A stretch of DNA of 64,000 bases from Paraescarpia echinospica (Eukaryota; Annelida; Polychaeta; Sabellida; Siboglinidae): the NCBI GenBank assembly GCA_020002185.1, contig CM034531.1, positions 45,708,574-45,772,573 on the forward strand, written 5' to 3'. The translations under genes were made by a program, and so were the position numbers. Each line of letters starts with the position of its first letter. Position 1 is the first letter of the stretch. A model generated the notes under the pieces. It was given only the letters and a program-made list of their open reading frames with translations, was not told the origin of the DNA and made no database searches. Of this stretch, positions 36,701 through 59,763 are shown one piece after another.

Positions 36701-39700
36701 TTAGAAGTGATAGTCATAGTCAACAATGTTAGAAGTGATAGTCATCACCCCAACATTGTTAGAAGTGATAGTCATCACCCCAACATTGTTAGAAGTGATA
36801 GTCATACTCAACATTGTTAGAAGTGATAGTCATCACCCCAACATTGTTAGAAGTGATAGTCATACTCAACATTGTTAGAAGTGATAGTCATACTCAACAT
36901 TGTTAGAAGTGATAGTCATACTCAACATTGTTAGAAGTGATAGTCATACTCAACATTGTTAGAAGTGATAGTCATACTCAACATTGTTAGAAGTGATAGT
37001 CATAGTCAACAATGTTAGAAGTGATAGTCATACTCAACATTGTTAGAAGTGATAGTCATACTCAACATTGTTAGAAGTGATAGTCATACTCAACATTGTT
37101 AGAAGTGATAGTCATACTCAACATTGTTAGAAGTGATAGTCATACTCAACATAGACTTGTAGCATATGGCAGTATGTATTATATGTAGTTACATATGGCA
37201 GTATGTATTATATGTAGTTACATATGGCAGTATGTATTATATGTAGTTACATATGGCAGTATGTATTATATGTAGTTACATATGGCAGTATGTATTATAT
37301 GTAGTTACATAAAGAAAATTTTGAAATTTTAAATTGTCACATTTGTATCTTAGTTGGAGTCTTCCCATTTCACCCGGTTTTCATTTACTTTTATGTTTGT
37401 ACTTTTAAATGTATTGTTTAAAGATTAATTTTGTTCAGTGATTATTTTTCGTGTCGATACTGATTCTACACAATGTCTCTTTGTTTTATTATTTGGGTTC
37501 AACACATTTCTTAATTCATGTAAATAATTAAATCTTGGCACATCTCACTCTGATTTTAAGATAACAAATTGCATTTACAATGTACGATGTAGAGGAGTAT
37601 GCTCATTAATGACTTCACATTTCTACTCGGGTAGTTCTCATTGATTTGGGGAAGTTTGAACAGTTTTAATACTACCAACCATACATGAAAGAATCTTTGT
37701 CAATTCAGGCTTCCGGATGACGTGAGGTTGTACCCGAGCTTGGGAAATGGGCATCTTGGTTTAGTCGTCCATGGCAACAGAATACACATGAATGGACTGT
37801 ACAATGGTCATATGACACATAGTCACCGGGCAGCCATACCATCAACATGTCAAGTGATGTTCATTGGCACAACACCGTCTTCTTCCTATCACAGCCAGTT
37901 TACTCTCGATGCTTCTTCAGGTACTGTTAAAATTGTTGTTAAAGCTAATTTTTATTGTTCCATTTTTCATTACTATTAATTTTAACTTGTAAATATAAAA
38001 CATTTATATCTGTGTTGTATATGTATTCATATGTACACTGATATTTTATATCCCATTTATAAAATCAGTTATTGCATTCTTTTGTGTAGCTTATTTATAC
38101 ACAGGTATTGTTAAAACTGTTGTTAAAGATACATTTTAGTATTCAGTTTTATTATTCTTAATTTTTTATGTTTTTATAGATTCAGTGGTGTTTTAAATCC
38201 ATTTATAAAATCAGTTATTATGTTCTTTGTATAGCTTATTTACATTTTATGTATATTTGCATGTATTTATTAAGTTTTTTGTTGAATGGGGATTTTACAT
38301 CCCTTTTTATATATCTTATTATTATTAGTTTGAATATTTTATATTTACATATTGGTATCTGTAATATCTTTTTTCCCGAATTAAGGCATTAATTCATTCT
38401 AAGCTGCATTCGCTGTCATTTTGGCCATCATAAATAAAGTTCATTCAACTTCATATTGTGCATGACTGGTTTGTGATATGCACAGTCATTTTAGTGGGAA
38501 AAAAGTTCCCATTTTAGTTAATTTCATACAAAGAATTTAATTTGATAATTTGTAAGAAACAATACAATGAAACAACAAATAACCATTTCACAGTGAAAAA
38601 CTAAGATATTCATATGATTACCCTTGCTCAGTGATTCACACATATTGTCTTTTCCTGAGTTTATTCTGTTCACGATTGATTGTAAGAACGTGTTTTCTTC
38701 AGGTACCTACCAAGAGACCCACACAGGTAGCCATGTGAAGGTGGTACAGGTGCAGTATGCACACAGAACTGTCCTTCCTCTGCTGGTGTTGGAGATAGAT
38801 CTACTGTGGAACGGTTCCACTCAGTCGGGGGTTCAGATCCTTCTCAATACCAGTCGGTGGTACGCCAGCGACGACATCGCCTTCAAAGAAGAACACAGTG
38901 GCATCTCAGGTGTCAGGTGGGTGAAACACACCTGTTTACTACGAACTCCTGTTTTACGTGTTTTGAGGCCAACTGTCTTGTGACATCTGTCTTCGGTGAC
39001 CACCTGGATTTAATGACCACCTATATTTAGTGACCATGTGCCTGCTGTGAAAATCCGGCAGACAGATTGTGTGATTACTGGTGTTTATACAACTTTCCTC
39101 ACTAATACCAATTGAACCTAACTGAGTTTTGCTGTGGTTTGTAGTTTGTCGTTACTTAGTCAATTTTTATTTTCTTATATATATATATTATTTATTTATT
39201 TTTATTAGTATTATTATTTGTTTTTATTTTTTTTTATTTTTTTTTTTAATCCTTTTTACATATGTTAGTATGTGTCGTATGATTAATGTAAATGATGTAT
39301 GGATGGCTCGGCCATCAAAAGTAGTGTAAACTAAACATGTTACAGGGTGAAAATAAAATTATCAATCAATTTTACATGTGACAGATACAAGAGTGGTCAC
39401 ATCAAGGAACCAGAAACAGCTACATCTGGAAAGACCCCTGTTCATGTGTACTTTGATAAAGTTCCAAACATTCTGAAATCTGCCCCTGGAGTTCTGCGTA
39501 CAAAGTGGATGTTTCTGACAGCAATACACACCAGCAAAGCCAAGGCAAAGGCAGCCTACCTGCTTGGTAACTTTTCATACTTTTTCTCCTTGTAAGTATG
39601 TAATACCTGTGAACATAAATATGCACTCATGCAAGGGGTATCATGATGAAGTTGATCAGGAGGACCAGGGTTTGAATCCTCTTCTCCCTGGTGTCTTTGT

Positions 39701-42700
39701 CAAGTGAAATACAGTTAAATGGATGTAAACCGTCTTTAACTCACACAGCCAGTGGTGTTGGTGTACAAAAATCAAACTGACCCTGAATTTGCTGCTGACG
39801 AAGCACTTGTTCTGTTAATGGAGTAAGCACCAGAAGTGCTTTGTCTAGGCAGATTCACTCTATAAGACCACACATATTATATATTGATATGCTAATTTTG
39901 GGGCATTGTAAGTGGATCTCCTCCCAGGCGCCGAGGTTCACTCGCCACTTTCTATGTTCATTCGCTTCCCTGAACTATTGGCCTCTGATCTACCAATTGG
40001 CGATATATTTCAGAAGACACAAGTTAGTCATTCAGAGTTATTCCCTTTTCTCAGTGAATGAATTGAGTGGTGAAACATTCTCCAGAAGGCGACACTGTTC
40101 GGTTTGCTAGGACATTATTATCGGCTGCCTACAATGGTGTAATTAACGACATTATAAGTGAAATGGTCAGTGGGAACAAGTTTAAGATCAAACAATGATT
40201 TAACGGTGATAACAGCTCCATTTGTTTGTTACTCCCTGTGTGTAAGCTGGTTATTACAATAACCATCCCTTGTAGCACTTCCAAGAGAAGTCGACATGGT
40301 GTTTGTTTGTTACTCTCTGGGTGTAAGCTGGTTATTACTATTACAATAACCATCCCTTGTAGCGCTTCCAAGAGAAGTCGACATGGTGTTTGTTTGTTAC
40401 TCCCTGGGTGTAAGCTGGTTATTACTATTACAATAACCATCCCTTGTAGCGCTTCCAGGAGAAGTCAACATGGAATAAAGTGTAAAGCCCTTTGAGCAGT
40501 CCAAAGGACTGGATACTGCACCGTATAAGAACTTACCTTTACCTTTAGTCCCATTGTGACACTGTGCCGTGTGTTGCAGGTCGTGATCTGATCCAGTCAG
40601 CCCAGCTGAGACGTCTCCACACAGAGGCGTGGCTGAGGCGCTGGCAGGAGGGAAGGATAGATGTGGCCGGGAATCCTGTCCTAGCCAGGGCTATATATGG
40701 CAGTTACTACTACCTACTCAGCAGCGTGCCTGGGAAGCCTGATCCTGACTGGCCGTTCGTGGGACTCAGTCCCGGTGGATTGGCCTGGGGAGGCGGGAAC
40801 AGCAATGATGTAAGTAGGAGTTAGCGGGTAGGGATGTAATACGTATAGTGGAACTTGTTAGCCATGTGTTTGTCTTCGATTCATTCCTTGGCAGGCTCTT
40901 AATCAGAAATACTGTTTTGCCAGTCTTGAATTAATCAAAAGTGTGCCTGTTTAGCATGCAAACAGCTTGCGTGGAAGCCATTCACATAATTTTTTCAATG
41001 ACAAACCAGTGTCATTTGAGCCATTTATTTAATTAATACTGATCCATTTGATTTGCTTCACTATAATTGTGCCAATGATAGACTTGTAACTATTAGTCAC
41101 TGATGTGGGCCCATAGACTTGTAACTATTAGTTAATCAAGTGGCCAGCTGGCCCCTCTCTATATTCCACCAGTCTTATCAGTTGTAATTACCTGTCTTAG
41201 CCAGTAATCTGCCAGTCTTGAAGAAGGAGAGACGGGTCTCTGGCTAAGCCCCTGTTCCTTCTCTGTAGTAGCACCCACACACATGCGTACACCTGTGCAC
41301 ATCTTAATCCCCTCTTAACACTGTCTTCTCATCTTAAATGTTGTCTGCCCCTTTTACTGCAGCTACGGTGTTTCACTGTTCCACCACCTTGTCAGCCTGC
41401 CTCCATCTGTACCATATGTCCCGCATACTTAGCCTTCTTTCTGAGCTCAACTGCAGCCTCATATATTCCATCAGGTCACCCAACCACTTTGCTCTTGTAA
41501 TTCCCTGGACCCTGTTGTTCTCACAAACATACTACCTTAGTTGTTGCTGCTCTGTCAACACCACTGTTATTTTCGGTAATCATTCCACCAGTGTACACAA
41601 ACCCACACTCATGTTTCATCTTCTTCTCTGTCTTTATGTTCATCCCCTCTTTCTTGTGGCCAGCCACTGTATTTCTGTCTTATCCAGGTAAATATTCATG
41701 CCATACTTCTCGAACAAATTCTTCCACTCTTACAGCACTTTTGGTAATTCCTGTTTGTTCTCTGCCACAATGGCAAAATCGGCTGATATATCCGAAAAAC
41801 TGTGTCAAACAAACGGGGCTGTGACTTGCGGCAGTTGTGGGCCTGTCAGAAGATTGCAGTTCCACAGTTATGTAGAATGCTATCCTACTTGGCCAAAATC
41901 CTTAGCTCCCTCAGATACTTCATCCATTTGGGAGTATACTATATGGGCCAGCATCTTTGAGGTCACTTGTGCAGCACATTTAATACAGTGCTTACTACTT
42001 TGTTACTTGCTACCTACTACTCCTACTGGTGTTTAGGGCAGCGACAAAGTTCCTCCATACCAGTCTGTCTCTTGCCAGCCTCTTGGGGATGCTCCAGCTC
42101 TGTTCTGCCTCTTTCATCTCTGCTTCTACTTTTCTACACCAGTTTGTTTTTGGACGCCCTCTTTTGCTTTTTTTGCACCAGAGGCCAGGTTCATGAAGCA
42201 TACTTAAAGTTACGCAATTACTTAGCGTCACGTGTTTTGCATAAACTCCTATGTTTGTTCATATTTAAAAAAATCGCATAATTTACTAAAGCAATCATCT
42301 TAGCGTAAAGAACGTTCTTAGCCGCTTCTGAAACCGGCCCCAGGTGTCTAGCACACTACGGTTCTTGTGAATGTGTTCTTTCCACAGCGAATCCACTTCC
42401 AGCATTTTCTGGTGATGATGGTAAGCATGTCTTCGCGAAACAGCGCTTGATACAGCAAATTCCAAGGCACTCTGTGCAGCTTCTAAAACATATTGCATTA
42501 TATGAACTGTTAGAAACAGTTTAAAATTACACCACGTTGAACATGTGTTGCACAAGATCCGCCATCACAACATCCTTAATTCAATCCCTCTTCTCTTCCC
42601 AGTCCTACCTGGGCCATGTGTTCTGGGACCAGGAGACATGGATGTTGCCTCCGCTACTGTTCCTTCACTCAGACCTTGGCCGGACAATACTGGACACTCG

Positions 42701-45700
42701 CAAACGTACAGCGGTCAGTGCTGCACGGAACGCACGGCTCAATGATCACGCTGGACTTCAGTACCCGTGGGAATCCGCTTTCACAGGTAAATCTTGTTTG
42801 AATTGAGAACATTTCCCAGTTTCTCTGGTCTATCCCAGTTCTTCCTTAGCAATGAATTTGAAAAAACCGGGGACAAATTTTAGTAACGCGCCTACTACTA
42901 CTGTAGCATTGTAGATTTAACAAATTACACCGTGGGAAGAACTGCTGAATTTTGAATAAGTGGGAAGATGGGTTCTTTGAAAAAAGATGATTGTGGCTAA
43001 TAGAAATGTAGCCACCAGATGATTATTTATTGATTTTATAACTTTTTTGTATTTAGTGTATGTGTATGCATGTATGTGTGCGTGCGTGCCTGTGAGTGTG
43101 TGTGTGTTTGATTGTTTGTGTGTGTATGAGTGTGTGTGTTTGATTGTTTGTGTGTGTATGAGTGTGTGTGTGTTTGATTGTTTGTGTGTGTATGAGTCTG
43201 TGTGTGTGTGTGATTGTTTGTGTGTGTATGTGTGTGTGTGTGTTTGATTGTTTGTGTATGTATGGGTGTGTGTGTGTGTTTGATTGTTTGTGTGTGTTTG
43301 ATTGTTTGTGTGTGTATGAGTGTTTGTGTGTTTGATTGTTTGTGTGTGTATGAGTGTGTGTGTGTTTGATTGTTTGTGTGTGTTTGATTGTTTGTGTGTG
43401 TGTATGAGTGTGTGTGTGTTTGATTGTTTGTGTGTGTATGGGTATGTGTGGGTTTGATTGTTTGTGTGTATGGGTGTGTGTGTGTTTGATTGTTTTTTGT
43501 GTGTATGAGTGTGTGTGTGTGTTTGATTGTTTGTGTGTGTATGAGTGTGTGTGTGTTTGATTGTTTGTGTGTGTATGAGTGTGTGTGTGTTTGATTGTTT
43601 GTGTATGTGTGAGTGTGTGTGTGTGTGTGTTTGATTGTTTCTGTATGTATGAGTGTGTGTGTGTTTGATTTTCTGTGTGTGTGTGAGTGTGTGTGTGTTT
43701 GATTGTTTGTGTGAGTGTGTGTGTGTTTGATTGTTTGTGTATGTGTGAGTGTGTGTGTGTTTGATTGTTTGTGTGTGTGTGAGTGTGTGTGTGTTTGATT
43801 GTATGAGTGTGTGTGTGTTTGATTGTTTGTTATGTATGAGTGTGTGTGTGGGTTTGATTGTTTGTGTGTGTATGAGTGTGTGTTTGTGTGTGTATGAGTG
43901 TGTGTGTGTGTGTTTGATTGTTTGTGTGTGTATGAGTGTGTGTGTGTATGAGTGTGTGTGTGTTTGATTTTCTGTGTATGTATGAGTGTGTGTGTGTTTG
44001 ATTGTTTGTGTGTGTATGAGTGTGTGTGTGTTTGATTGTTTGTGTGTGTATGAGTGTGTGTGTGTTTGATTTTCTGTGTATGTATGAGTGTGTGTGTGTT
44101 TGATTTTCTGTGACTGTGTGTGTGTGTTTGATTGTTTGTGTGTGTATGAGTGTGTGTGTTTGATTTTCTGTATATGTATGAGTGTGTGTGTGTGTGTTTG
44201 ATTGTTTGTGAGTGTGTGTGTGTGTTTGATTGTTTGTGTGTGTATGAGTGTGTGTGTGTTTGATTTTCTGTGTGTGTTTGATTGTTTGTGTGTGTATGAG
44301 TGTGTGTGTGTGTTTGATTGTGTGTGTGTGTTTGATTGTTTGTGTGTGTATGAGTGTGTGTGTGTTTGGTTGTTTGTGTGTGTATGAGTGTGTGTGTGTG
44401 TTTGATTTTCTGTGTGTGTGTGTGTGTGTGTGTGTTTGATTGTTTGTGTGTGTATGAGTGTGTGTGTGTTTGGTTGTTTGTGTGTGTATGAGTGTGTGTG
44501 TGTTTGATTGTTTGTGTGTGTATTAGTGTGTGTGTGTTTGATTGTTTGTGTGTGTATGAGTGTGTGTGGGTTTGATTGTTTATATATGTTTGTGTGGATT
44601 TGTGTTTTTGTTTGTTTGCCTATGTGAATGTGTTTGTATGTGTGACCTGCTTTGCTTGGCAGTAAAGCTATGTTGCGACAACATTGACACAATATTAGAG
44701 TTGTACCAATGTAGTCTTTTTTCCAGGCATGGAGACATGTCCTGACCACATTGACGCGACTCAAGAGGTGCACATCTCTGGGGATGTGGCTCTCGGTATC
44801 TTGCAGTATGTCCGGGTAACCGGGGATCATTCATTAATTACCGATGATGGGTTTGGCAAAATCGTGATGGGACTTGGTGATTTCTGGATCAGCATGTTGA
44901 CTCTCAATAAAACCAGCGACCTTTATGAAATCCATGGTAAGTTTTAATAGTTATTTCTGGTTAACTTAGAAGTAAATTAGCTGACGTTATTAATATGTAG
45001 TCCGTATTTAAAATACATGTTAATTTCGTGTGGCAAGATACATTTTATTATCAAAGTAAAATCAGAAAGGAATAGTAAAAAGCAGTATAGGAGAAATTTT
45101 CACAAAGGAAGGTATAAGGACATGAGGAAATATTTAGCAAAGATAGACTGGAAAAACACACTAAAAAATAAGACAGCAACAGAATGCTGGAACATATTAA
45201 AGAGTGAAATTAAGTGCATAGTCGATAAATTTGTACCCTTAAAAAAAAAGGAAATGGTCCAAAAAGAAACACTTATCGAAAGAAGCCATTAGAAAAATTA
45301 AGTATAAACAAATGATGTGGAAGTCATATAGATGTACAGGAAAAGATGAAGACTACAACAGTTATAAAGAAGCACTTTACCAAGCTACAACTGAAATTAG
45401 AAATTCAAAGAGAAGCTATGAACAACAATTAGCTAGTAATATAAAACATGACAGCAAGAATTTTTATGCGTATGTTCGAAGCAAAAAGAAAGTTAAAGAT
45501 AAGGTCGGTCCCCTAGAAGATAGTGCTGGAAATATAATATCAGAGGGATTCTTAATGGCAGAAGACCTGAATGAGTACTTTAGTTCAGTGTTTACCAGAG
45601 AAGATATTAGGTCACTGCCAGAGTACCAGAGGCTAAGTTCAAGGGGGCAGATTCAGACTATTTAGGACAATTAATTGTAACCCCGGAAATGGTAGCTAAA

Positions 45701-48700
45701 AAAATAAGGGCTATGAAGGATAATAAATCACCTGGAGTGGATGGGATTCCGCCCAAACTACTATTGGAAATTGTAGAACAAATTAGCGTACCGCTTGCAA
45801 CAGTTTTATTAGAAGAGGGAGTGGTTCCTTTAGAATGGAAAGAGGCAAACACTATCCCGTTATTTAAAAAAGGTTCGAGAAACAAGTCGGAGAACTATAG
45901 ACCAGTGAGTTTAACATCAGTGATATGCAAATTATTAGAAAGACTAATTAAAGATTTTCTTGTTAAACAAAACTTGATAAACCCATCTCAACATGGTTTT
46001 TTAAAGCGAGGTCATGCTTAACAAATATGTTATGTTTTTTGGAAGACATCACTAAGTGGGTAGATGAGGGATCACCAGTAGATATCGTCTACTTAGATTT
46101 TCAAAAAGCTTTCGACAAAGTACCACATCAAAGATTACTGCCTAAGGCCAGACACCCCAGGTGAAATGGTGCTTTTTTGACCAAAAAAACTGAAAATGGT
46201 TTTCTGCCAGATTATTATAGCTTTGTATGCATACTATCAATAAAGTTCACTTCTATGACAATTACGTACCTCTAAGTGAGTTTTAGTCATGGATCAAGCA
46301 TGTCAGTATCATGTAATGAAATCCATTATGCAATCTTTGACAGCCATTTTCTCAAAAACATTTTTCTTCACATTTCTGCATTTGGAAACGGGATATCTCT
46401 TGGAATAATTATGGTATATAAATAATGTTTTCAATGTTGCATTCAGCATATTCTACTGTGTGCAATGATCAGACACTTTTTTAAATCATGAATAGTTTGA
46501 AAGATATAGCCATATTTGTTGCCAAAAAACAAGATTTTGTTTTGTATTTTACCAAAAAATTATTTAAAAAATAAAAACAACATTTCAAAAAATGCTCTAA
46601 TCATTTCACAATAGAATCTATAGAGAACATGGATTTGAAAGAATTATAACTGTATATGGATTCAATAAAAAATGGCAGTTTCCAAATTTGTCAATATTTG
46701 CTCCATTTTGTTTGTTACCATGGAAACTGGGGATCTGGCTGAAAAAAGTTAAATATATATTTTACTCAGTAAGACCCATTTCATGCATTGGGCAGAAAAA
46801 ATTGAACTGTTTTCACAAATTAAAAAATAATCCTATCTACCTGCCGTGCCTGGCCTTAAACTAAAGGCCCATGGCATAGGAAATGGTATAATAAACTGGA
46901 TAGAACAATGGCTGATTGACAGAAGATAACGTGTTGTAGTTGATGGGGAGGCTTCAAACGGGAAATCGGTATTGAGTGGGGGACCACAGGGATCAGTACT
47001 AGGACCTATATTATTCTTAATATATATCAACGATTTGGATGATGAAATAACAAGCAAGGTGTTGAAATGATGATACAAAAGTGTTTAGAAGGATTAAAAG
47101 TGATGGAGATAGACAGCATTTACAAGATGATCTTGACAGGTTGATCAAATGGTCTGAAAAGTGGCAAATGCTGTTCAATTTTGGGAAATGTAAATGCCTC
47201 CAGACAGGACATGGGAACGAAGAGGTAGAATATACAATGGGGGTACTGTATTAAGTACTACTGTAAAAGAAAAGGATTTATGGTTAACCATTAGTGCTGA
47301 TATGAAGGTTTCAGAGCAGTGCGGAATTGCAGCTTTAAAGGGAAATCAAATCCTTGGATTAATTAGGCGAAACATAAATAATACCGCTGTACAAAACAAT
47401 GGTGAGGCCTCATTTAGAATATTGTATACAAGCGTGGAGGTCATATCGCAAGAAGGACATAGATATGCTAGAAAGATTACGGAAGAGAGCGACTAAAATG
47501 ATACCAAAACTGAGGGATCTTAGTTACGAAAAAAAAAACTAAAAAAATGCGGCTTAACAAGAGACCAGGAGATTGAGAGGAGATCAGATAGAAGTGTTTA
47601 AAATAATGAATGGTTATGAAAATACAGATAGAAACATTTTTTTTTAGTTAAGAAAAATTAGAAGGACTAGAGGACATGAAGTTACATTAGCAAAGGAGCA
47701 GTGTAGATTAGATATAAGTAAGTTCTCATTTTCACAAAGGACTGTAAATGAATGGAACAGATTATCTGCTGATTGTGTGGGTGCTAATAGCGTGAATATG
47801 TTTAAAAATAAAATTGACATACCTCAGAAGGGCGGGATACACATAGATAAAAGGGTCGGACTCTCGATAAGCGAAAGGGCTTCCTTGTCCATCTGCCACC
47901 TAGAGTTAATTCTCTGGGTGGCAGTCTTGTTAAATCTGCAAAGTTTCACCATAAATTAAAATAAAACATTTTAACATGCCAGTGTGGCTTTGCCATTTTA
48001 AATGAACTACTGAATAACAATACTTATTAAATTAAATATCTGCTCATTTGAACTTAACATTGTTTTGAAGATATTTGTAATTCCAATAGCTGTGAAAGTG
48101 GTTTCCACAAAATTGTTCAAATGTACATAATGTTGTTAGACGTCAAGTACGAATACACTGAGAAATTGTCTTCTGCCTCTGTGTGTATGCAGCACCATCC
48201 AGAGGATGATGGGCAATCTTGCTAATATTTACAGTCCAATTTAATAAGTAAACATTATTTGAATAAACAATGAATGTTTCTTCCTTAGTTCCTTACACAC
48301 CTGTTGTTACTGCAGGAATTCAGCCCCCTGACGAATGGCACTGGAACGTCAACAATAGCGTCTACACAAATGTCATCGCAAAGTTGACACTTCTAGCCGC
48401 TGACATGGCTGTGAACCTGCTTAACACATCACAAACACATCACTATAAACACTATGCGGACAGAATGTATGTGCCATATGATGTGAATGCACAGTACCAC
48501 CCGGAGTATGACGGTTGTGTCAATGGTAAGGAGAACTACAGTTGAACCTTGCTTTATGGTCACCTCGGTAATGCAGTCACCTTGCAATTAAGGTCATTCT
48601 AGCACAGACCCAAATTGTTTCCATATCCACTATACAGTAATGTATAGGAAATCACCTCACTGTTCAGGTCCCTTTCATCCAGTGCCAAGGGTGACCTTAA

Positions 48701-51700
48701 AATAGCGAGGTCCCACGTTGTGCACATTCCAGTACACCACAGTTTTGATTGCTCTTTGTTATTTCATAAATCAATAAATTGTGTTTTTTGTTGTTGTAAA
48801 TTTGTTGCTCATCAGTTCTTATACACGCTATATCAATTCCAAGTCCATATATTATATGGACTTGGATCCATAGCTTCCAGTGTTCAACATGGGTGTGGAT
48901 TTCAGTAGATGCCAAACAATTGTTATGTATTTGACTCGGCATATCCACAGGGCAATGTCACCATGGAGCGTGCAATGAATAGCCCCCTCAGCATGACGTA
49001 AATGGGTTATACATTGATTATCGCGTTCGTTCAATTTGACACCTGTTGTGTCCTGGATACTTTTTTTTACTACACCAGGGGTCGCCACCTGCTAATTGTC
49101 CTTTGTGGTTCACTTTTTGGGCAGTTTGACATTTACCACAACTTACCAGCATATATGAACAATTGTTCTTTGTCAGCATGCTTCAGATCCACATATGCAA
49201 GGTATAATTACTGTGCTGGTATACAGTACAATAAATTAAAGCGCAGGAACAAAATCCATCCTTCATTTATTGTGTAACCTGATCATTTCACTGAAATCGG
49301 CTTCCTGTCTCATGAACATAATGAATGATTTGGTTGAAGGTTCAGTGGTGACACAGGCGGATGTCATACTGATTGGCTTCTGCATTATGTACATATTTGG
49401 TCGAAAGTATAAAAGACAAATGTCATAATGATTAGCTTCCCTCTCATGTACAATATTGTACATATTTGGTTGAAGGTACAACGGTGAAACAGGCGGATGT
49501 CATAATGATTGGCTTCGCTCTCGTTACATATTTGGTTGAAGGTATAATGGTGAAACATGCGGATGTCATAATGATTGGCTTCCCTCTCATGTACTTATTT
49601 GGTTAAAGGTACAATGGTGAAAAAGGTGGATGTCATAATGATTGGCTTCCCTCTCATTACATATTTGGTTGAAGATATAATGGTGAAACATGCGGATGTC
49701 ATAATGTTTGGCTTCCCTCTCGTGTACATATTTTGTTGATGGTACAACGGTGAAACAGGCGGATGTCATAATGATGGGCTTCCCTCTCGTTACATATTCG
49801 GCTGAAGGTACAACGGTAAAACAGGCGGATGTCATAATGATTGGCTTCCCTCTCGTTACATATTTGGCTGAAGGTACAACAGTGAAACAGGCAGATGTCA
49901 TAATGATTGGCTTCCCTCTCGTTACATATTTGGCTGAAGGTACAATGGTGAAACAAGTGGATGTCAGACTGATTGGCTTCTGCTTTATGTAATATTTGGT
50001 TGAAGGTATAATGGTGACACAGGTGGATGTCAAACTGATTGGCTTCTGCTTTATGTACATATTTAGTTGAAGGTATAATGGTGAAACCGGCAGACGTCAT
50101 ACTAATTGTCATCCGTCTCATGTAGACATATTTGGTTGAAGGTATAATGGTGAAACCGGCAGACGTCATACTAATTGTCTTCCGTCTCATGTAGACATAT
50201 TTGGTTGAAGGTACAGTGGTGAAACAGGCAGACGTCATACTGATTGGCTTCCCTCTCATGTACAACATGTCTTCCAACGTGCGCCGGAATGATCTACTCA
50301 TCTATGAACAAGTAATGGCTCTCAAGGCGATTTCTTTTTGGCAGTTGACAAGCAGTGAAAATGAAGAATTGTTATTTGCTGTCAGTAATGTTAAATCCAA
50401 ATTTGTGGATATTTTGTAGATGGTTTATTTGTAAGCGACACAAAAACGTTATTTTTGTTCACCCAAGAACAAATATTTTGTCTTTTAACCATTCCGCACT
50501 GTCTATGAAGCTTCAGTACGACAGGCCTTTTATTTAGCATTGACGATGTCTGCTATTCAAATCGTTTTTACTCATAATTATCCACTACGTGGAGCCACTT
50601 GTTGTGTATAGATGTCAAGGTGAATATCATTTATTATCGCTCAATAATAGTTTACGGAGATTTTTGTGGTTTTTAATGATGGATTATCAAAATGCCACAA
50701 TGGCGGACGGCATTACTTCAACTAGCGATTTACCACCGTATCTTTTGGACAGATTATTTGATAGTTTTAGCAAAGAATCTTTGTCGGATGTTGACGATCG
50801 ACACAATAACGATGTCGGTGAACTTACTCTACAACGGTGTTCAGCAACAGCAAAAATGTTGAAATCTTGGCGGCCATTTTGTTACCATGATGACGGACTG
50901 TAAAATGATATGGCTCATTTTACTCGCTGATAATCATACTTTCCGAAAATATATAACATTCCCATTCATAAAATGCATTTTTTTTGCTCAAATCTTGACT
51001 TGAAGTGAGGTTGTCCATTGTCTTGCATATTCTCTGGGAATGCAGTATTCAGTGGTCACAGCTGGTCAGGGCTGTAGTACTGAAATGGTTAACACCTTGT
51101 GATGTATCAGCAGTATGATACACATGTACTGCATGTGCATATCAACATGTATATACGTGTACGTGGATGCATTCGTGCATGCATGCATGCATTCTGTGTA
51201 TGTGTACGTGTGCGTGCAAGCGTATGCGGTGTGTGTGTGGGATGTATATGTACATTACATATATGAAATGCAAATGGAACAGTTATTGTTTCTTTCAAAT
51301 CTCACAAGAGTAGCATGACAAATATACGTCAATGAATCTCATTGATATTTTATAAGTAACATATGTTGTTCCATGCTGGTCCTTGCTGCAGGCGACAAGC
51401 AGGAACGGCCCAGCGATGACATGGTCTATGTTTCTCATTGGCTTGCTTGAACTCTCGGAACACAGCAAAGCTGCTGACATGCTCCAGAGGAGCTACTCAT
51501 ACATTGCCAGTGAATTTCAGGTAGAATACTGACATGCATTTATTGCCATTATGTAGATGACTAATTGTAAATGTAGATGACTTAATACATGGTTTTGTTT
51601 GTGTTTCTACAAATTGTAATTGTTTCTTTGAAACTAAATATTTTTTGAAATTGTTTAGTTTAGTCAGTCACATGTATTGAATGTACACTGTTCTATGAAT

Positions 51701-52831
51701 TAGCTTGTTGTATTAACACACTATCAGTATCGACTAACTCATAATGTATTGACAATAATTACAAACTAATATACTTATTGGCAAGAAATAGATTGGTCTC
51801 TGCAACTATTGTGAAAGAATTTAATTATCGACAAGAAACTCACTGGTCTCTGCAACTGTTGACTGAAAAACAAGTTTATTTAGCTTACTCAAACACTGAC
51901 CAGAAGGTGCAAGACGTGTAGTTGTCTGTGGTTTATTATATTAGCAGGGTAAAGAGTGATCAAACCTTTCTTCTTATTGCTGGTTCCCTGATAGAAGGGT
52001 GATGTCTAGCTAACACCTGTACTGTTGAATGACACCTACAGTAATTACCCCACAGTCCACTCATCTCATTTGTGTTCTTCTGCTTTTCCTCTGGCCTCTG
52101 TACAAATGGTTTCAGGGCAAAACTGTATAAACGGCAATGCAGATGACATTTTTGACTGCAGAATTTCAGAATTGTAATGCACCAACAAATATTTTGTGTT
52201 TGTTATCAGTTGCTACGATGTTGTACTCAAGAGATTCTAATGTCATACACAAGTTTTCATATATGCTCTGAGAATGAAATACAGAAGTTAGGTTTTTTCA
52301 AAAAATGGATGTATCGCATTTTGTCCTGATACCTTTCATATAGATAAGCAATTATATTTTTGAATATAATCTAGTGAATGTGGATTTTCATTGTGGTTAT
52401 AGAAAGGCATGCACTTCCTTAGGTTTGTTAGTTTGGTTTCTCCGTAACAGTTGTGTTTAATTTGGTAGGTGTGGACGGAGAAAATAAACTCCAGCGGTGC
52501 AACCAACTTCATCACAGGACAGGGCGGCTTCCTCCAGTCCATGATATTCGGCTACGGAGGGTTCCGTCTATACGATCGTTATCTAACTATTAACCCAGTG
52601 CTGCCACCAGGCTGCAACCAGATGAACTTCACAGGTATTGACTACCTCGGGTCGAGTCTTGACTTTGTATTTGACGCCGCTTCAGATATGACCAAAGTGA
52701 CTGTGACAAGACAGGGAGTTGGTACACCAACTTTACTTGTGCGTGTCTCAGCTACTGAATCATATGTGTTGGAACTAAGGAAGACTGTTGTTGTTCCAAT
52801 GATGAAAGTTGCAATTGTTCCATTGCAGTGA
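30784..52831 (+). CDS. PGGHG: Protein-glucosylgalactosylhydroxylysine glucosidase (GH65)
   Basis: The enzyme removes glucose from the glucosyl-galactosyl-hydroxylysine units of collagen. Exons: 30784-30864, 31976-32142, 37709-37920, 38703-38916, 39385-39566, 40580-40809, 42603-42786, 44727-44936, 48289-48525, 50211-50311, 51392-51520, 52469-52831. All introns are GT-AG and the phases join without error to 769 residues, close to human PGGHG (about 737). Family landmarks: YNG near residue 105, GLSPGG (exon 6), [11 protein letters not shown] (residues 366-376), [15 protein letters not shown] (from 507), VVKQADV (575-581), GPAMTW (612-617) and WTE (651-653). By recalled human mutagenesis, D371, E509 and E653 correspond to essential carboxylates D301, E430 and E574. 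Residues 9-24 are hydrophobic (signal anchor), unlike the human protein. The frame is open 36 bases upstream of this ATG after a possible acceptor, so an upstream exon is possible. Confidence 0.92.
32280..33065. repeat. Two diverged copies of a 140-160-bp segment in intron 2
   Basis: 32280-32425 and 32905-33065 share GGCATTCCATxTCAAATCAA, a TTTGATxTTxAxxAAACTT segment, TTATGTTCATG and a TTCCAGxxxTAGAGGTCATC end. Probably two old copies of one dispersed repeat. Confidence 0.5.
35492..37151. repeat. 28/30-bp minisatellite in PGGHG intron 2
   Basis: About 58 head-to-tail units of AACATTGTTAGAAGTGATAG plus TCATACTC (28 bp), or with TCATCACCCC (30 bp). The 30-bp form is concentrated at 36355-36840. 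An occasional variant has AGTC and AACAATG. Plus-strand ORFs of 60-70 codons are repeat artefacts (LEVIVITPT). The array follows a single-copy-like seed at 35480-35520. Confidence 0.95.
37163..37311. repeat. 29-bp tandem repeat, five copies
   Basis: Unit CATATGGCAGTATGTATTAT plus ATGTAGTTA, nearly identical in all copies. It directly follows the 28/30-bp array but is unrelated in sequence. Confidence 0.95.
39605..39720 (+). mobile_element. Possible tRNA-derived SINE fragment in intron 5
   Basis: GGGTTTGAATCC near 39668 is a box B-like word after a tRNA-like GTTGATCAGGAGGACCA segment. Box A is weak. It differs from the candidate at 9310-9592 beyond the box. Confidence 0.25.
40222..40471. repeat. 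80-85-bp tandem repeat, three copies, intron 5
   Basis: The unit runs from TTGTTACTCCCTGxGTGTAAGC through GGTTATTAC...AATAACC (an inverted pair) to CTTCCAAGAGAAGTCGACATGG. Copies differ by an inserted TATTACA and a few substitutions. The following AAGCCCTTTGAGCA...GTATAAG tail resembles a SINE 3' end. Confidence 0.85.
41330..42235 (-). mobile_element. RTE-like LINE fragments in PGGHG intron 6, scrambled
   Basis: On the minus strand, 42231-42010 encodes a LINE C-terminus ([20 protein letters not shown]...[13 protein letters not shown]). 41865-41560 encodes an RT segment after the catalytic box ([15 protein letters not shown], with [11 protein letters not shown] and [10 protein letters not shown] in shifted frames). 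The C-terminal piece lies upstream of the RT piece, the reverse of the normal order, so this is either two fragments or a rearranged copy. Confidence 0.5.
42181..42345. mobile_element. Possible PIF/Harbinger-like MITE
   Basis: GGCCAGGTTCATGAAGCATACTTAA at the left faces the inverse of GGCCGGTTTCAGAAGCGGCTAAG at the right. It partly overlaps the LINE fragment. Target duplication not resolved. Confidence 0.4.
43055..44590. repeat. TG-rich satellite in PGGHG intron 7
   Basis: About forty units of TTTGATTGTTTGTGTGTGTA plus TGAGTGTGTGTG, of variable length (about 24-40 bp). The 637-codon minus-strand ORF (His/Thr/Gln-rich) across this region is an artefact of the repeat and lies antisense to exon 8. 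Alternating purine-pyrimidine runs are long. Confidence 0.95.
46145..46856. mobile_element. Non-autonomous DNA transposon inside LINE A copy 3
   Basis: Terminal inverted repeats: AGGCCAGACACCCCAGGT at the left, and the inverse of AGGCCAGGCACGGCAGGT at the right (15 of 18). It interrupts the LINE at the place where copy 2 reads CTGCTTAAACTAAAGG without interruption, giving a direct empty-site comparison. Flanks are TA on both sides. They may also be a decayed TTAA (left CTAA, right TTAA), which would point to a piggyBac/Kolobok-type element instead of Tc1/mariner. Confidence 0.8.
47894..47923 (+). other. LINE A 3'-terminal hairpin, copy 3
   Basis: Arms TGCCACCTAGAG and CTCTGGGTGGCA. Compared with copies 1 and 2, both sides of one base pair have changed (T-A to C-G), keeping the stem paired. 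Confidence 0.65.
48536..48722. mobile_element. Possible pogo/Tigger-like MITE in intron 9
   Basis: CAGTTGAACCTTGCTTTATGG followed by TCACC at the left faces the inverse of ACCTCGCTATTTTAAGGTCACC at the right. The CAGT...ACCT...GGTCACC pattern resembles pogo-type ends. A TA precedes the left end. The right boundary is unclear. Confidence 0.45.
49290..50206 (+). repeat. Tandem array of PGGHG exon 10 splice-junction copies
   Basis: Units of 66-69 bp start (at the GAAG of the acceptor) near 49336, 49403, 49472, 49538, 49605, 49671, 49738, 49804, 49870, 49936, 50002, 50069 and 50138. The true exon acceptor is at 50207-50210. A partial unit precedes the first. Each unit holds the end of the intron (ACATATTTGGTTGAAG) and the first codons of exon 10 (GGTACA...GTGAAACAGGCGGATGTC). 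Several units still translate as [14 protein letters not shown]. The pyrimidine-rich exon segment CTTCCCTCTC of one unit sits where the polypyrimidine tract of the next would be. Confidence 0.92.
50211..50311 (+). CDS. PGGHG: PGGHG exon 10 (the source exon of the array)
   Basis: This exon encodes [20 protein letters not shown]...LLIYEQ. It is the only copy that continues past the GFPLM segment into the conserved [10 protein letters not shown] region and ends in a donor (GTAATG at 50312). This identifies it as the real exon among the repeated copies. Entry phase 1, exit phase 0. Confidence 0.92.
50489..51088 (+). mobile_element. piggyBac-like non-autonomous element in intron 10
   Basis: Flanked on both sides by TTAA (50485-50488 and 51089-51092). 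Ends CCATTCCGCACTG (left) and the inverse of CCATTTCAGTACT (right) are related. The 600-bp interior contains an ORF (Met near 50670, ending at 50903) with the acidic/serine-rich [19 protein letters not shown] segment, like the N-terminal tails of piggyBac transposases, but no catalytic domain. It is therefore probably an internally deleted derivative. Confidence 0.7.
51115..51255. repeat. GTGTRTGCATG-type microsatellite region
   Basis: Alternating purine-pyrimidine TG/CA/GC words around 51120-51250, including (GCAT)n near 51176-51190. Non-coding, just downstream of the piggyBac-like element. Confidence 0.6.
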
Positions 52832-55200: not shown

Positions 55201-56139
55201 CTAGCTAAGTGTATCATCTACAGATGCTGTATCATCCACAGACGCTGTATCGTCAGGTGTATTCTGTGCGATACTGTTCTGTTCTTCAGTATTCTCTGGG
55301 TCAGAGTTCAATTGAAACACCTTTTCATCTTCAATGTCGCTGTCGAGCTGTGCAGACGGCGTCGAGACACAAGAAAGTGTATCATAACCGCTCGACCCAG
55401 ACATTGTCCGATACGCCGACCACGAGCTGCCGTTCGAGAACGTCCTATTGTTCGTCGTCGCCGACAACGCCTGTGTCGCGTACGAGCCCCGTCTATACCT
55501 GAAGGGCACCCGCAACTTATAAACACCCGCAACAAACTCCATCGACAACTCGTCCATGTCGACTCCATCCGGGAACTCGATCGTCACGTCCTTGCTCAGT
55601 TTCGGCCCGCCACCTACCGGCGTCGAGCCTGACAGTACGACCACGTGACCGGTGGTCACGTGATGCACGTCCTGCGTGAACTCGCCCATGAGGACGTTGA
55701 CGGTGTAGATGCGGTGTCCGTAGTCGTCGTTGATCACCTTGGCACGGATGACGTTCGTCATCTGCTGCGCCATCGAGTTGGCCCTGTCCCGCAGCGGCCG
55801 ACGCCGGCGTCTGTTCCTGTTCGGCTCGCTGCTTCCCGCGTCCCGTTGAGCGATGCTAAGCTCCAGTTTCTCCGATAGCAGCTGCTCGAAGTATGTTTTA
55901 TTCTCTAACAGTCCCAGCTTCATCATTCGTTCCTCCAGTTTGCGTTGTGCCGCGATGTCGCCACCGCTCTTCGTCCACTCGTGACGGACGTTGTTGGCAC
56001 TTCCGGTGTCAGCCATGTTGTTAGTAGAAAGATGTCGTCTGGTGTCGTGGTGCCCACTGTCGACTTTCATGTCGCCCAGTGGTGTGCACTGACGCCACGT
56101 CGCCTGCGCTCCTAAAACAAAGATTAAAATGATCAACAT
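55201..56139 (-). CDS. Predicted secreted alpha-crystallin/HSP20-like domain protein
   Basis: A 312-codon ORF from the ATG at 56139 (context GCGCCATGT). The frame is open upstream to 56295. Residues 1-13 (MLIILIFVLGAQA) form a short signal peptide with a usual A-x-A cleavage site. Residues about 60-120 are charged and probably helical, ending in an Arg-rich run (RNRRRRRPLRDR). Residues about 131-214 resemble an alpha-crystallin domain: YTVNVLMGEF, a HVVVLSG strand, and the diagnostic-looking FPDGVDMDELSMEFVAGVYKLRVP. The C-terminus (250-312) is acidic and ends in two DDTASV repeats. Alternative model: an acceptor (TTTTAG at 56117-56112) would start an internal exon at 56111, removing the signal peptide. 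The family call rests on pattern, not on a search. Small HSPs normally lack signal peptides. Confidence 0.6.
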   Translation of the reverse strand: MLIILIFVLGAQATWRQCTPLGDMKVDSGHHDTRRHLSTNNMADTGSANNVRHEWTKSGGDIAAQRKLEERMMKLGLLENKTYFEQLLSEKLELSIAQRDAGSSEPNRNRRRRRPLRDRANSMAQQMTNVIRAKVINDDYGHRIYTVNVLMGEFTQDVHHVTTGHVVVLSGSTPVGGGPKLSKDVTIEFPDGVDMDELSMEFVAGVYKLRVPFRYRRGSYATQALSATTNNRTFSNGSSWSAYRTMSGSSGYDTLSCVSTPSAQLDSDIEDEKVFQLNSDPENTEEQNSIAQNTPDDTASVDDTASVDDTLS

Positions 56140-56594
56140 GGCGCACGTTTGTAAGGTAACGAGATACAACATTCGATTGACGGTTAATTGGGCAGTTAAT
56201 TCGGCTGATCGTTGTTTACTTGATACTCCCCAGTGGGATATGCAAATCATCCTGTTACCTCTAATAAAATAATTTCCTAACGACCGTTTAAGCAACTAGT
56301 AAACATGAAATAAGCCACTCGTGTGTTCTTTAAGAACGTCTTCATTTATTTATTTATTTAACTTAATCTTGATTAGGAAAACGTGACACTATAGAGAATG
56401 TGCGAAGTGCTGGACGCTCCTGCAGCAACATATTTCACATTTTCTTGCGCGGGGATAGGTGAAACCATCTGTACGTGGTCATATATCCACATAGGTAAAA
56501 GAGTAGAACGCATAACAGGGGATATATGCATTATGCGAGTGAGAGTCGACTGCTGGGGTCGAGCTCTTACTCCCGCCATGTCTGTCCACACGCC

Positions 56595-59500
56595 GCTATC
56601 CCTCATTACCGTTAGCGACATTATTGGAGCTATCCCTCATTGCCGTTGGCGACACAATTTGAGCGATCCCTCATTGCCGTTAGTGACACTATTGGAGCTA
56701 TCCCTCATTGCCGTTAGCGACACTATTGGAGCTATCCCTCATTACCGTTAGCGACATTATTGGAGCTATCCCTCATTACCGTTAGTGACACTATTGGAGC
56801 TATCCCTCATTACCGTTAGCGACATTATTGGAGCGATCCCTCATTGCCGTTGGCGACACTATTTGAGCGATCCCTCATTGCCGTTAGTGACACTATTTGA
56901 GCGATCCCTCATTGCCGTTAGTGACACTATTTGAGCGATCCCTCATTGCCGTTAGTGACACTATTTGAGCGATCCCTCATTGCCGTTAGTGACACTATTT
57001 GAGCGATCCCTCATTGCCGTTAGCGACATTATTGGCGACATTATTGGAGCTATCCCTCATTACCGTTAGCGACATTATTGGAGCTATCCCTCATTACCGT
57101 TAGCGACACTATTGGAGCTATCCCTCATTACCGTTAGCGAAATTATTGGAGCTATCCCTCATTACCGTTAGCGACACTATTGGAGCTATCCGTCATTACC
57201 GTTAGCGACATTATTGGAGCTATCCCTCATTACCGTTAGCGACATTATTGGAGCTATCCCTCATTACCGTTAGCGACATTATTGGAGCTATCCCTCATTA
57301 CCGTTAGCGACATTATTGGAGCTATCCCTCATTACCGTTAGCGACATTATTGGAGCTATCCCTCATTACCGTTAGCGACATATTGGAGCTATCCCTCATT
57401 ACCGTTAGCGACATTATTGGAGCTATCCCTCATTACCGTTAGCGACATTATTGGAGCTATCCCTCATTACCGTTAGCGACATTATTGGAGCTATCCCTCA
57501 TTACCGTTGGCGACACTATTGGAGCTATCCCTCATTACCGTTAGCGACATTATTGGAGCTATCCCTCATTACCGTTAGCGACACTATTGGAGCTATCCCT
57601 CATTACCGTTAGCGACATTATTGGAGCTATCCCTCATTACCGTTAGCGACATTATTGGAGCTATCCCTCATTACCGTTAGCGACACTATTGGAGCTATCC
57701 CTCATTGCCGTTAGTGACCGTTAGCTATCCCTCATTACCGTTAGCGACATTATTGGAGCTATCCCTCATTACCGTTAGCGACATTATTGGAGCTATCCCT
57801 CATTACCGTTAGCGACATTATTGGAGCTATCCCTCATTACCGTTGGCGACACTATTGGAGCTATCCCTCATTACCGTTAGCGACATTATTGGAGCTATCC
57901 CTCATTACCGTTAGCGACATTATTGGAGCTATCCCTCATTACCGTTGGCGACACTATTGGAGCGATCCCTCATTACCGTTGGCGACATTATTGGAGCTAT
58001 CCCTCATTACCGTTAGCGACATTATTGGAGCTATCCCTCATTACCGTTAGCGACACTATTGGAGCTATCCCTCATTACCGTTACCGACATTATTGGAGCT
58101 ATCCCTCATTACCGTTGGCGACACTATTGGAGCTATCCCTCATTACCGTTAGCGACATTATTGGAGCTATCCCTCATTACCGTTGGCGACACTATTGGAG
58201 CTATCCCTCATTACCGTTAGCGACATTATTGGAGCTATCCCTCATTACCGTTAGCGACATTATTGGAGCTATCCCTCATTACCGTTAGCGACACTATTGG
58301 AGCTATCCCTCATTGCCGTTAGTGACAGTATTGGAGCTATCCCTCATTACCATTGGCGACACTATTGGAGCTATCCCTCATTACCGTTAGCGACATTATT
58401 GGAGCTATCCCTCATTACCGTTAGCAACATTATTGGAGCTATCCCTCATTACCGTTAGCGACATTATTGGAGCTATCCCTCATTACCGTTGGCGACACTA
58501 TTGGAGCTATCCCTCATTACCGTTAGCGACATTATTGGAGCTATCCCTCATTACCGTTAGCGACATTATTGGAGCTATCCCTCATTGCCGTTAGCGACAT
58601 TATTGGAGCTATCCCTCATTGCCGTTAGCGACATTATTGGAGCTATCCCTCATTGCCGTTAGCGACACTATTGGAGCTATCCCTCATTGCCGTTAGTGAC
58701 ACTATTGGAGCTATCCCTCATTACCGTTGGCGACACTATTGGAGCTATCCCTCATTACCGTTAGCGACACTATTGGAGCTATCCCTCATTACCGTTAGCG
58801 ACATTATTGGAGCTATCCCTCATTACCGTTAGCGACATTATTGGAGCGATCCCTCATTGCCGTTGGTGACACTATTTGAGCGATTCCTCATTGCCGTTAG
58901 TGACACTATTTGAGCGATCCCTCATTGCCGTTAGTGACACTATTTGAGCGATCCCTCATTGCCGTTAGCGACATTATTGGAGCTATCCCTCATTACCGTT
59001 AGCGACATTATTGGAGCGATCCCTCATTGCCGTTGGCGATACTATTTGAGCGATCCCTCATTGCCGTTAGTGACACTATTTGAGCGATCCCTCATTACCG
59101 TTAGTGACACTATTGGAGCTATCCCTCATTACCGTTAGTGACACTATTTGAGCTATCCCTCATTACCGTTAGTGACACTATTGGAGCTATCCCTCATTAC
59201 CGTTAGTGACACTATTGGAGCTATCCCTCATTACCGTTAGTGACATTATTGGAGCTATCCCTCATTACCGTTAGTGACACTATTGGAGCTATCCCTCATT
59301 GCCGTTAGCGACACTATTGGAGCTATCCCTCATTACCGTTAGCGACATTATTGGAGCTATCCCTCATTGCCGTTAGTGACACTATTGGAGCTATCCCTCA
59401 TTACCGTTAGCGACATTATTGGAGCTATCCCTCATTACCGTTAGCGACATTATTGGAGCTATCCCTCATTACCGTTAGTGACACTATTGGAGCTATCCCT

Positions 59501-59763
59501 CATTACCGTTAGCGACATTATTGGAGCGATCACTCATTGCTGTTGGCGACACTATTTGAGCGATCCCTCATTGCCGTTAGTGACACTATTTGAGCGATCC
59601 GTCATTGCCGTTAGTGACACTATTTGAGCGATCCCTCATTGCCGTTAGCGACATTATTGGAGCTATCCCTCATTACCGTTAGCGACATTATTGGAGCTAT
59701 CCCTCATTACCGTTAGCGACACTAGTTGAGCTATCCCTCATTGCCGTTAGCGACACTATTGGA
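56595..59763. repeat. 34-bp satellite, about 93 units
   Basis: Main unit GAGCTATCCCTCATTACCGT plus TAGCGACATTATTG. A second form differs at several linked sites (GAGCGATCCCTCATTGCCGT plus TAGTGACACTATTT) and occurs in short runs. Three units make 102 bp, so each frame repeats every 34 codons. ORFs such as 57923-58288 (LELSLITVSDIIGAIPHYRW) are repeat artefacts. Confidence 0.97.

Follow-up and report, generated by a model that had tools for sequence, protein, structure and literature searches.

The 64-kb stretch of DNA analysed here (the window) contains an animal PGGHG gene (protein-glucosylgalactosylhydroxylysine glucosidase, GH65) that spans positions 37709-52831. PGGHG is the animal enzyme that trims sugar from collagen. 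Its exon chain was derived from a tblastn map, with a human PGGHG sequence as the query, and from splice sites read off the sequence. The chain as found comprises ten coding exons, a 5' exon not having been found; these exons join into a predicted protein of 677 residues without internal stops. The predicted protein contains the GH65 central domain of Pfam (2e-42) and aligns with the solved PGGHG 9sd7 over residues 1-649 (E 1.9e-138), in agreement with the host gene named in the initial annotation. The exon with the VVKQADV segment, which had been given the number 10, counts as the ninth, assuming one further 5' exon. The features around this exon are as follows.

48316..48525, + strand: upstream coding exon (GIQPPDEWH...), donor ATG/GTAAGG, phase 1 end (tblastn with human PGGHG, and exon chain)
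48526..50210, + strand: array-bearing intron, 1685 bp (exon chain)
50209..50210, + strand: true acceptor AG (GAAG/GTACAG), about -2.4 bits, below the nine other acceptors of the gene (exon chain, acceptor score and homologue spacing)
50211..50311, + strand: true VVKQADV exon, 101 bp, donor CAA/GTAATG

The upstream exon ends in GTCAATG/GTAAGG and the VVKQADV exon begins at GAAG/GTACAG; skipping of the latter exon (50211-50311) would break the reading frame. Across this junction, HPEYD and KQAD are spaced by 13 in the predicted protein, as they are in 111 of the 120 homologues listed from the 341 found (Glandiceps is shown as the comparison example); 7 others have a spacing of 12, and the remaining 2 gave no motif match. 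A 22-residue insert at the junction was present in none of the 118 measurable proteins among these 120. Because the spacing equals that of the 111 homologues, the acceptor at 50210 is the needed one, and from protein conservation alone we infer that splicing is to this last acceptor. One listed entry, P0002 (Tegillarca granosa), is 1146 aa long with two GH65-like copies, and reflects either a fusion of tandem genes or a gene model that joined them.

More than half of the intron before the VVKQADV exon (875 of 1685 bp) consists of tandem copies of the intron's own 3' boundary. TRF reported a tandem repeat of period 66 at 49459-50257 (score 1011), as well as periods of 133 bp (score 1063) and 199 bp (score 1065, over 49328-50264). 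The units were segmented by hand-set anchors into 13 complete intronic units, U1-U13, with the true boundary as U14. The array and its two most regular parts are listed here.

49320..50194, + strand: mirage array (the term is explained below), 13 complete intronic units U1-U13 of 66-71 bp (TRF and segmentation)
49726..49990, + strand: U7-U10, with starts at 49726, 49792, 49858 and 49924, exactly 66 bp apart, in one open frame, 49705-49992
50057..50194, + strand: U12 and U13, which are each 69 bp long, share 97% identity across 66 aligned columns, and carry TACTAAT plus an additional terminal TAG

The lengths of U1-U13 are 71, 69, 66, 67, 66, 67, 66, 66, 66, 67, 66, 69 and 69 bp. A truncated further unit can be seen by eye before 49320, although it is absent from the computed list. 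Each unit starts with a version of ACATATTTGGTTGAAG, corresponding to the last 16 nt of the intron, and continues with a version of GTACAATGGTGAAACAGGCGGATGTCATAATGATTGGCTTCCCTCTC, within about 50 nt that correspond to the start of the exon. This anatomy agrees with the proposed derivation of the units from a coding 3' splice junction. In U2, an internal deletion has removed part of the GTACAATGGTGAAACAGGCGGATGTCATAATGATTGGCTTCCCTCTC-like segment. The intronic units are 80-91% identical to U14 and differ among themselves by up to 31%; the conserved protein sequence is kept in the exon copy but altered at several residues in the intronic ones.

Conservation of the splice site itself is variable. 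It had been stated that every copy keeps ACATATTTGGTTGAAG, but the exact 16-mer occurs in just 4 of the 13 intronic units and in the exon, and two units lack an AG at the homologous place. The homologous AG is kept in 11 of 13 units, the GT in 12 and both in 10. The four adjacent open units had been noted before, and their spacing and common open frame are as described; however, the acceptor is not kept in all of them, U7 reading GATG at this place.

Two features bear on how the array has grown. U12 and U13 have private variants in common, and at least one variant is shared with the exon alone; because of these variants, growth was probably recent at the exon side. In addition, adjacent units diverge less than non-adjacent ones (0.140 versus 0.189, in one haplotype and without a significance test), as in tandem turnover.

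Duplicated boundaries elsewhere were searched for by comparing the ten PGGHG exons, each with 60-bp flanks, to the window at E values up to 0.01. One further duplicated boundary was found in PGGHG, on the donor side, and it includes an exon end and its donor (CAG/GTACTGTTAAAATTGTTG...).

37918-37966 and 38102-38150: donor-side boundary duplication, 184 bp apart, 82% identity over 49 nt

A 30-nt repeat at 38053 and 38199 (90% identity) has a spacing of 146 bp. TRF also identified several other minisatellites in the window. Just upstream of the first PGGHG coding exon found, a 28-bp minisatellite of about 58 copies (35492-37152) lies a short way before a 29-bp array with 5 perfect copies (37163-37311). 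A PGGHG intron contains a 1.5-kb GT-rich array (43056-44618) with periods of 34 and 70 bp, whose reverse strand has long open frames rich in HTHT and NNQTHT. A 34-bp minisatellite, reported by TRF in rows of 12.9 and 80.4 copies, occupies 56595-59763 and has higher-order periods of 68 and 102 bp. The intron before the 48316 exon contains broken, retrotransposon-like open pieces (45243-47959), one of five showing weak similarity to reverse transcriptase (PF00078, E 1.5e-4), below the cut-off. A 364-codon open frame on the - strand (55201-56295) had no Pfam matches at 1e-3; NupH_GANP was sub-threshold (E 0.0018), and a putative small-heat-shock-like segment was seen by eye. Rfam at gathering thresholds gave no matches in the window.

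Tandem duplications of an intron/exon boundary, lying beside the authentic boundary, have been described in amphioxus as mirages, in BflGb6, BflGb9 and Adh3 (PMC3087553); lancelet PGBD5 and TnC are further cases (PMC3902484). In the PGGHG array the copies likewise span the intron/exon boundary, the authentic boundary stands at the array end (U14), and the gene as found is intact. As described for BflGb6, the PGGHG unit takes the 3' end of the intron and the 5' part of the exon (PMC3087553). Many, not all, of the copies in amphioxus mirages keep AG/GT, compared with 10 of 13 here, and their turnover is described as concerted evolution (PMC3087553, PMC3902484). The dimensions differ: the PGGHG array has 13 units of 66-71 bp, BflGb6 has units of 150-160 bp in 6 or 3 copies in two haplotypes, and the Adh3 units are 10-72 bp; variation of copy number between haplotypes is reported for amphioxus mirages (PMC3087553). 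The initial annotation knew of no described case of this kind for PGGHG, and none for this gene appeared in the mirage literature covered here; as a kind, however, such arrays are described, since the amphioxus mirages share their structure (PMC3087553, PMC3902484). Judged by its sequence, the PGGHG array is a mirage of the kind already described, outside the lancelets where cases were reported. The literature that we covered on mirage minisatellites, mainly open-access papers, contained lancelet cases only, and a first report outside lancelets is not claimed.

Two other systems are similar in part. Human CBS 844ins68 is a 68-bp duplication of the intron 7/exon 8 junction of which the distal copy is spliced (PMC2630376; the text there says 'donor', whereas a work that it cites names 3' splice site selection in its title). 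With its one extra copy, this human polymorphism differs from the 13 diverged copies in PGGHG. In potato RdRp, a case of intron gain by tandem duplication (Rogers model), the duplicate includes the intron 3' end and the 5' side of the exon, with a putative branch site, pyrimidine tract and acceptor (PMC4974935). In PGGHG, by contrast, the copies were added to an existing intron, with no new intron as far as is visible.

The relatives of the gene were compared in a tree of 43 rows, the query and 42 proteins, which was midpoint-rooted for drawing. The predicted PGGHG groups with P0003 and Dimorphilus (100/99) and then with Lineus (98/93); none of the tree proteins exceeds 43% identity to the query over aligned columns. 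Dimorphilus is an annelid and Lineus a nemertean. Three Branchiostoma rows lie apart from the PGGHG of the window, and placement with the cephalochordates was not obtained. Thus the host gene sits with annelid and nemertean sequences, in contrast to the lancelet genes of the described mirages, and its array is known from one sequence.

Closer relatives were found as short fragments. A search with the array open frame gave a good match to P0122 (E 1.1e-4), and E values of 0.16, 1.5 and 3.6 for P0123, P0124 and P0125, all of them short fragments; the exon open frame matched P0125 at 3e-16 and P0123 at 1e-13. The residues (L/H)VEGT occur at and before the exon start in P0122, P0123 and P0125, which fits a common intron end GTTGAAG. 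P0122 has a decayed copy of the unit upstream, scoring 55 against its own exon (the maximum of 3000 shuffles was 40) and 61 against the array (maximum of 3000 shuffles, 45). An upstream copy in P0123 is doubtful, since 73 of 3000 shuffles scored as high against its own exon and 14 of 3000 against the array; P0124 has none, with 2008 and 2083 of 3000 shuffles scoring as high. Because P0122 has this decayed copy, at least one duplication probably predates the split from the P0122 lineage; it is possible that a paralogue is represented instead. No exact 24-base piece of the unit was found in viral contigs. A search of viral contigs and those of prokaryotes confirmed no relatives of P0125, which is what one would expect if the gene is an animal one.

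These comparisons also bear on whether the array could be a satellite that has no relation to PGGHG and merely happens to overlap the exon, or else a misassembly. A chance overlap is not a serious option because the body of the unit is the conserved coding sequence of the exon itself. Differences of up to 31% between units are not expected from misassembly of identical reads, and the decayed copy in P0122, with its score of 55, argues against both explanations. We regard this reading as barely credible.

Signs of selection on the units were sought by counting changes on a tree of U1-U14, 58 in all. In the exon-derived part, codon positions 1, 2 and 3 had 17, 15 and 13 changes over 16, 17 and 17 columns, and pN/pS among the intronic units was 0.88; selection on the coding content of the units thus has no support. 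The pN/pS ratio was slightly below 1 (0.67) for the units versus the exon. The four AG/GT columns had 1, 1, 1 and 0 changes, and as few were seen in 52% of draws of four random columns, so that selection on AG/GT is likewise unsupported (P=0.52, with little power in 66 columns). Divergence between units is lower in the 16 intron-derived columns (0.137) than in those derived from the exon (0.196), which could hint at constraint. This small test shows no constraint, and weak constraint may be compatible with it.

The initial annotation had suggested that the array could tune productive splicing or sequester splicing factors. In one version of this idea, the units would form a ladder of decoys that compete for splicing factors and set the amount of productive PGGHG mRNA through nonsense-mediated decay of misspliced forms. 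The proposed decoy at 50141 does read into a TAG at 50192-50194 as stated, and the pyrimidine run and branch-like motif of each exon copy do sit where the signals of the next unit would be. More generally, all 11 of the unit acceptors that keep the AG lead to a premature stop when read straight through, and all 31 AGs in 49292-50209 close the frame if used as acceptors; of 36 AGs tried up to 50329, an open frame is given only by 50216 and 50231, both inside the exon. The exon has both the weakest acceptor score and the weakest donor pairing of the gene. However, unit codons and AG/GT columns drift as if unconstrained. With a crude matrix, scores of the unit acceptors range from about -4.0 to -0.5 bits, although the true acceptor is no better, compared with 0.1 to 6.7 for the gene's other acceptors. 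In amphioxus, globin RT-PCR and Adh3 data suggest that mirages leave splicing undisturbed (PMC3087553). A decoy ladder that tunes PGGHG is in our judgement improbable.

Rather than one of the GAAG decoys, the strongest competitor of the true acceptor is a TAG at the end of the array, not named as an acceptor in the earlier account. It lies close to two branch-point-like motifs.

50193..50194, + strand: competing acceptor AG (CTCATGTAG/ACAT), about +2.6 bits (crude matrix and frame check)
50169..50175, + strand: TACTAAT, branch-point-like, A at 50174, 20 nt to AG 50194 and 36 nt to AG 50210
50186..50190, + strand: CTCAT, another branch-point-like motif; its A at 50189 lies 5 nt from AG 50194 and 21 nt from AG 50210

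Acceptor 50194 lies 16 nt before the true one, and its use would add 16 nt, giving DIFG and then TGA. Together with its twin at 50125, at the ends of U12 and U13, it is the only AG in 49292-50215 with a positive score (+2.6 each). By first-AG logic AG 50194, with its better score and a branch-like site 20 nt before it, should win over the true acceptor unless the branch-like A at 50189 is used. A branch A only 5 nt from an AG is probably too close for use. The choice between the As at 50174 and 50189 would thus decide between the good and the bad acceptor. Unusual RNA structure was not detected at the array end (49990-50230; z=+1.49, with 191 of 200 shuffles folding at least as well).

One consequence could be that the longer ends of U12 and U13 created a good acceptor that now takes a large share of splicing, in which case the allele would make less enzyme and may be decaying or rare. 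The scores of +2.6 and -2.4 and the stop after DIFG point in this direction, but the former come from a rough matrix, the true site could win through the A at 50189, and the nine other coding exons found and their splice sites look intact. We therefore consider such a liability unlikely. Alternatively, the array may have been co-opted, with an exon-derived repeat serving as the branch point and pyrimidine tract of its parent exon, the balance between AG 50194 and AG 50210 setting PGGHG output, which repeat number and the U12/U13 variant would then tune in a heritable way. If this were true, AG 50194 would lead to a premature stop and AG 50210 to enzyme; we give the idea little probability.

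Ten units keep AG/GT and, as AAG/GTAYAA could serve as a donor, a wrong acceptor used at one of them might rebuild a donor. The transcript might then be respliced, correcting itself or removing the intron stepwise through dual-specific or recursive sites. In place, U1 pairing of these units (-5.6 to -6.2 kcal/mol) is better than that of the exon's real donor, CAA/GTAATG, which at -3.0 kcal/mol is the weakest of nine donors. Once joined to the upstream exon, however, the unit donors pair at only -4.1 to -4.7 kcal/mol, versus -5.0 to -12.2 kcal/mol for eight of the nine real donors, and pairing is stronger, up to -6.0 kcal/mol, at 5 of the 50 other GTs in 48600-49300. All ten sites are AAG/GT, after TTTGGTTG-like sequence, and none match the recursive consensus YAG/GT, although in table rows of PMC10156609 many reported recursive sites also lack it. 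Human UBC uses dual-specific AGGT sites in tandem repeats and, as in PGGHG, its units are delimited by AG/GT sites (PMC10809524). The UBC repeats are real coding monomers whose sites are used as both donor and acceptor, in contrast to the diverged intronic units of PGGHG, with their weak rebuilt donors, which are known from sequence alone. Such a self-correcting ladder seems to us very improbable. The use of units as open 22-codon cassettes was also considered and rejected: of 68 possible AG-to-GT unit pairs, counting U14, just 4 stay open and in frame, and among the 120 listed homologues VKQAD occurs twice only in P0002, apparently as two whole gene copies.

We conclude that the array is probably a passive mirage minisatellite, mainly a passenger with a small splicing cost and not a regulator. 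The tandem array would have arisen as a single 3' intron/exon boundary of PGGHG was duplicated repeatedly, and the several other minisatellites of the window fit this reading. Its growth would be tolerated because each new copy is added within the intron and brings acceptor signals with it, so that the last copy can presumably still be spliced to the upstream exon. The real acceptor would now draw its branch point and pyrimidine tract from the exon-derived part of U13. Misspliced transcripts would be lost because use of an upstream copy mostly gives a premature stop. A counterpoint to the passive reading is that, on the crude score, the true acceptor ranks last among the ten of this gene.

The PGGHG array suggests that boundary-spanning minisatellites are not peculiar to lancelets. 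It would offer a natural test of 3' splice site choice among more than ten near-identical sites, and a test case for the recycling of exon sequence into intron splicing signals.
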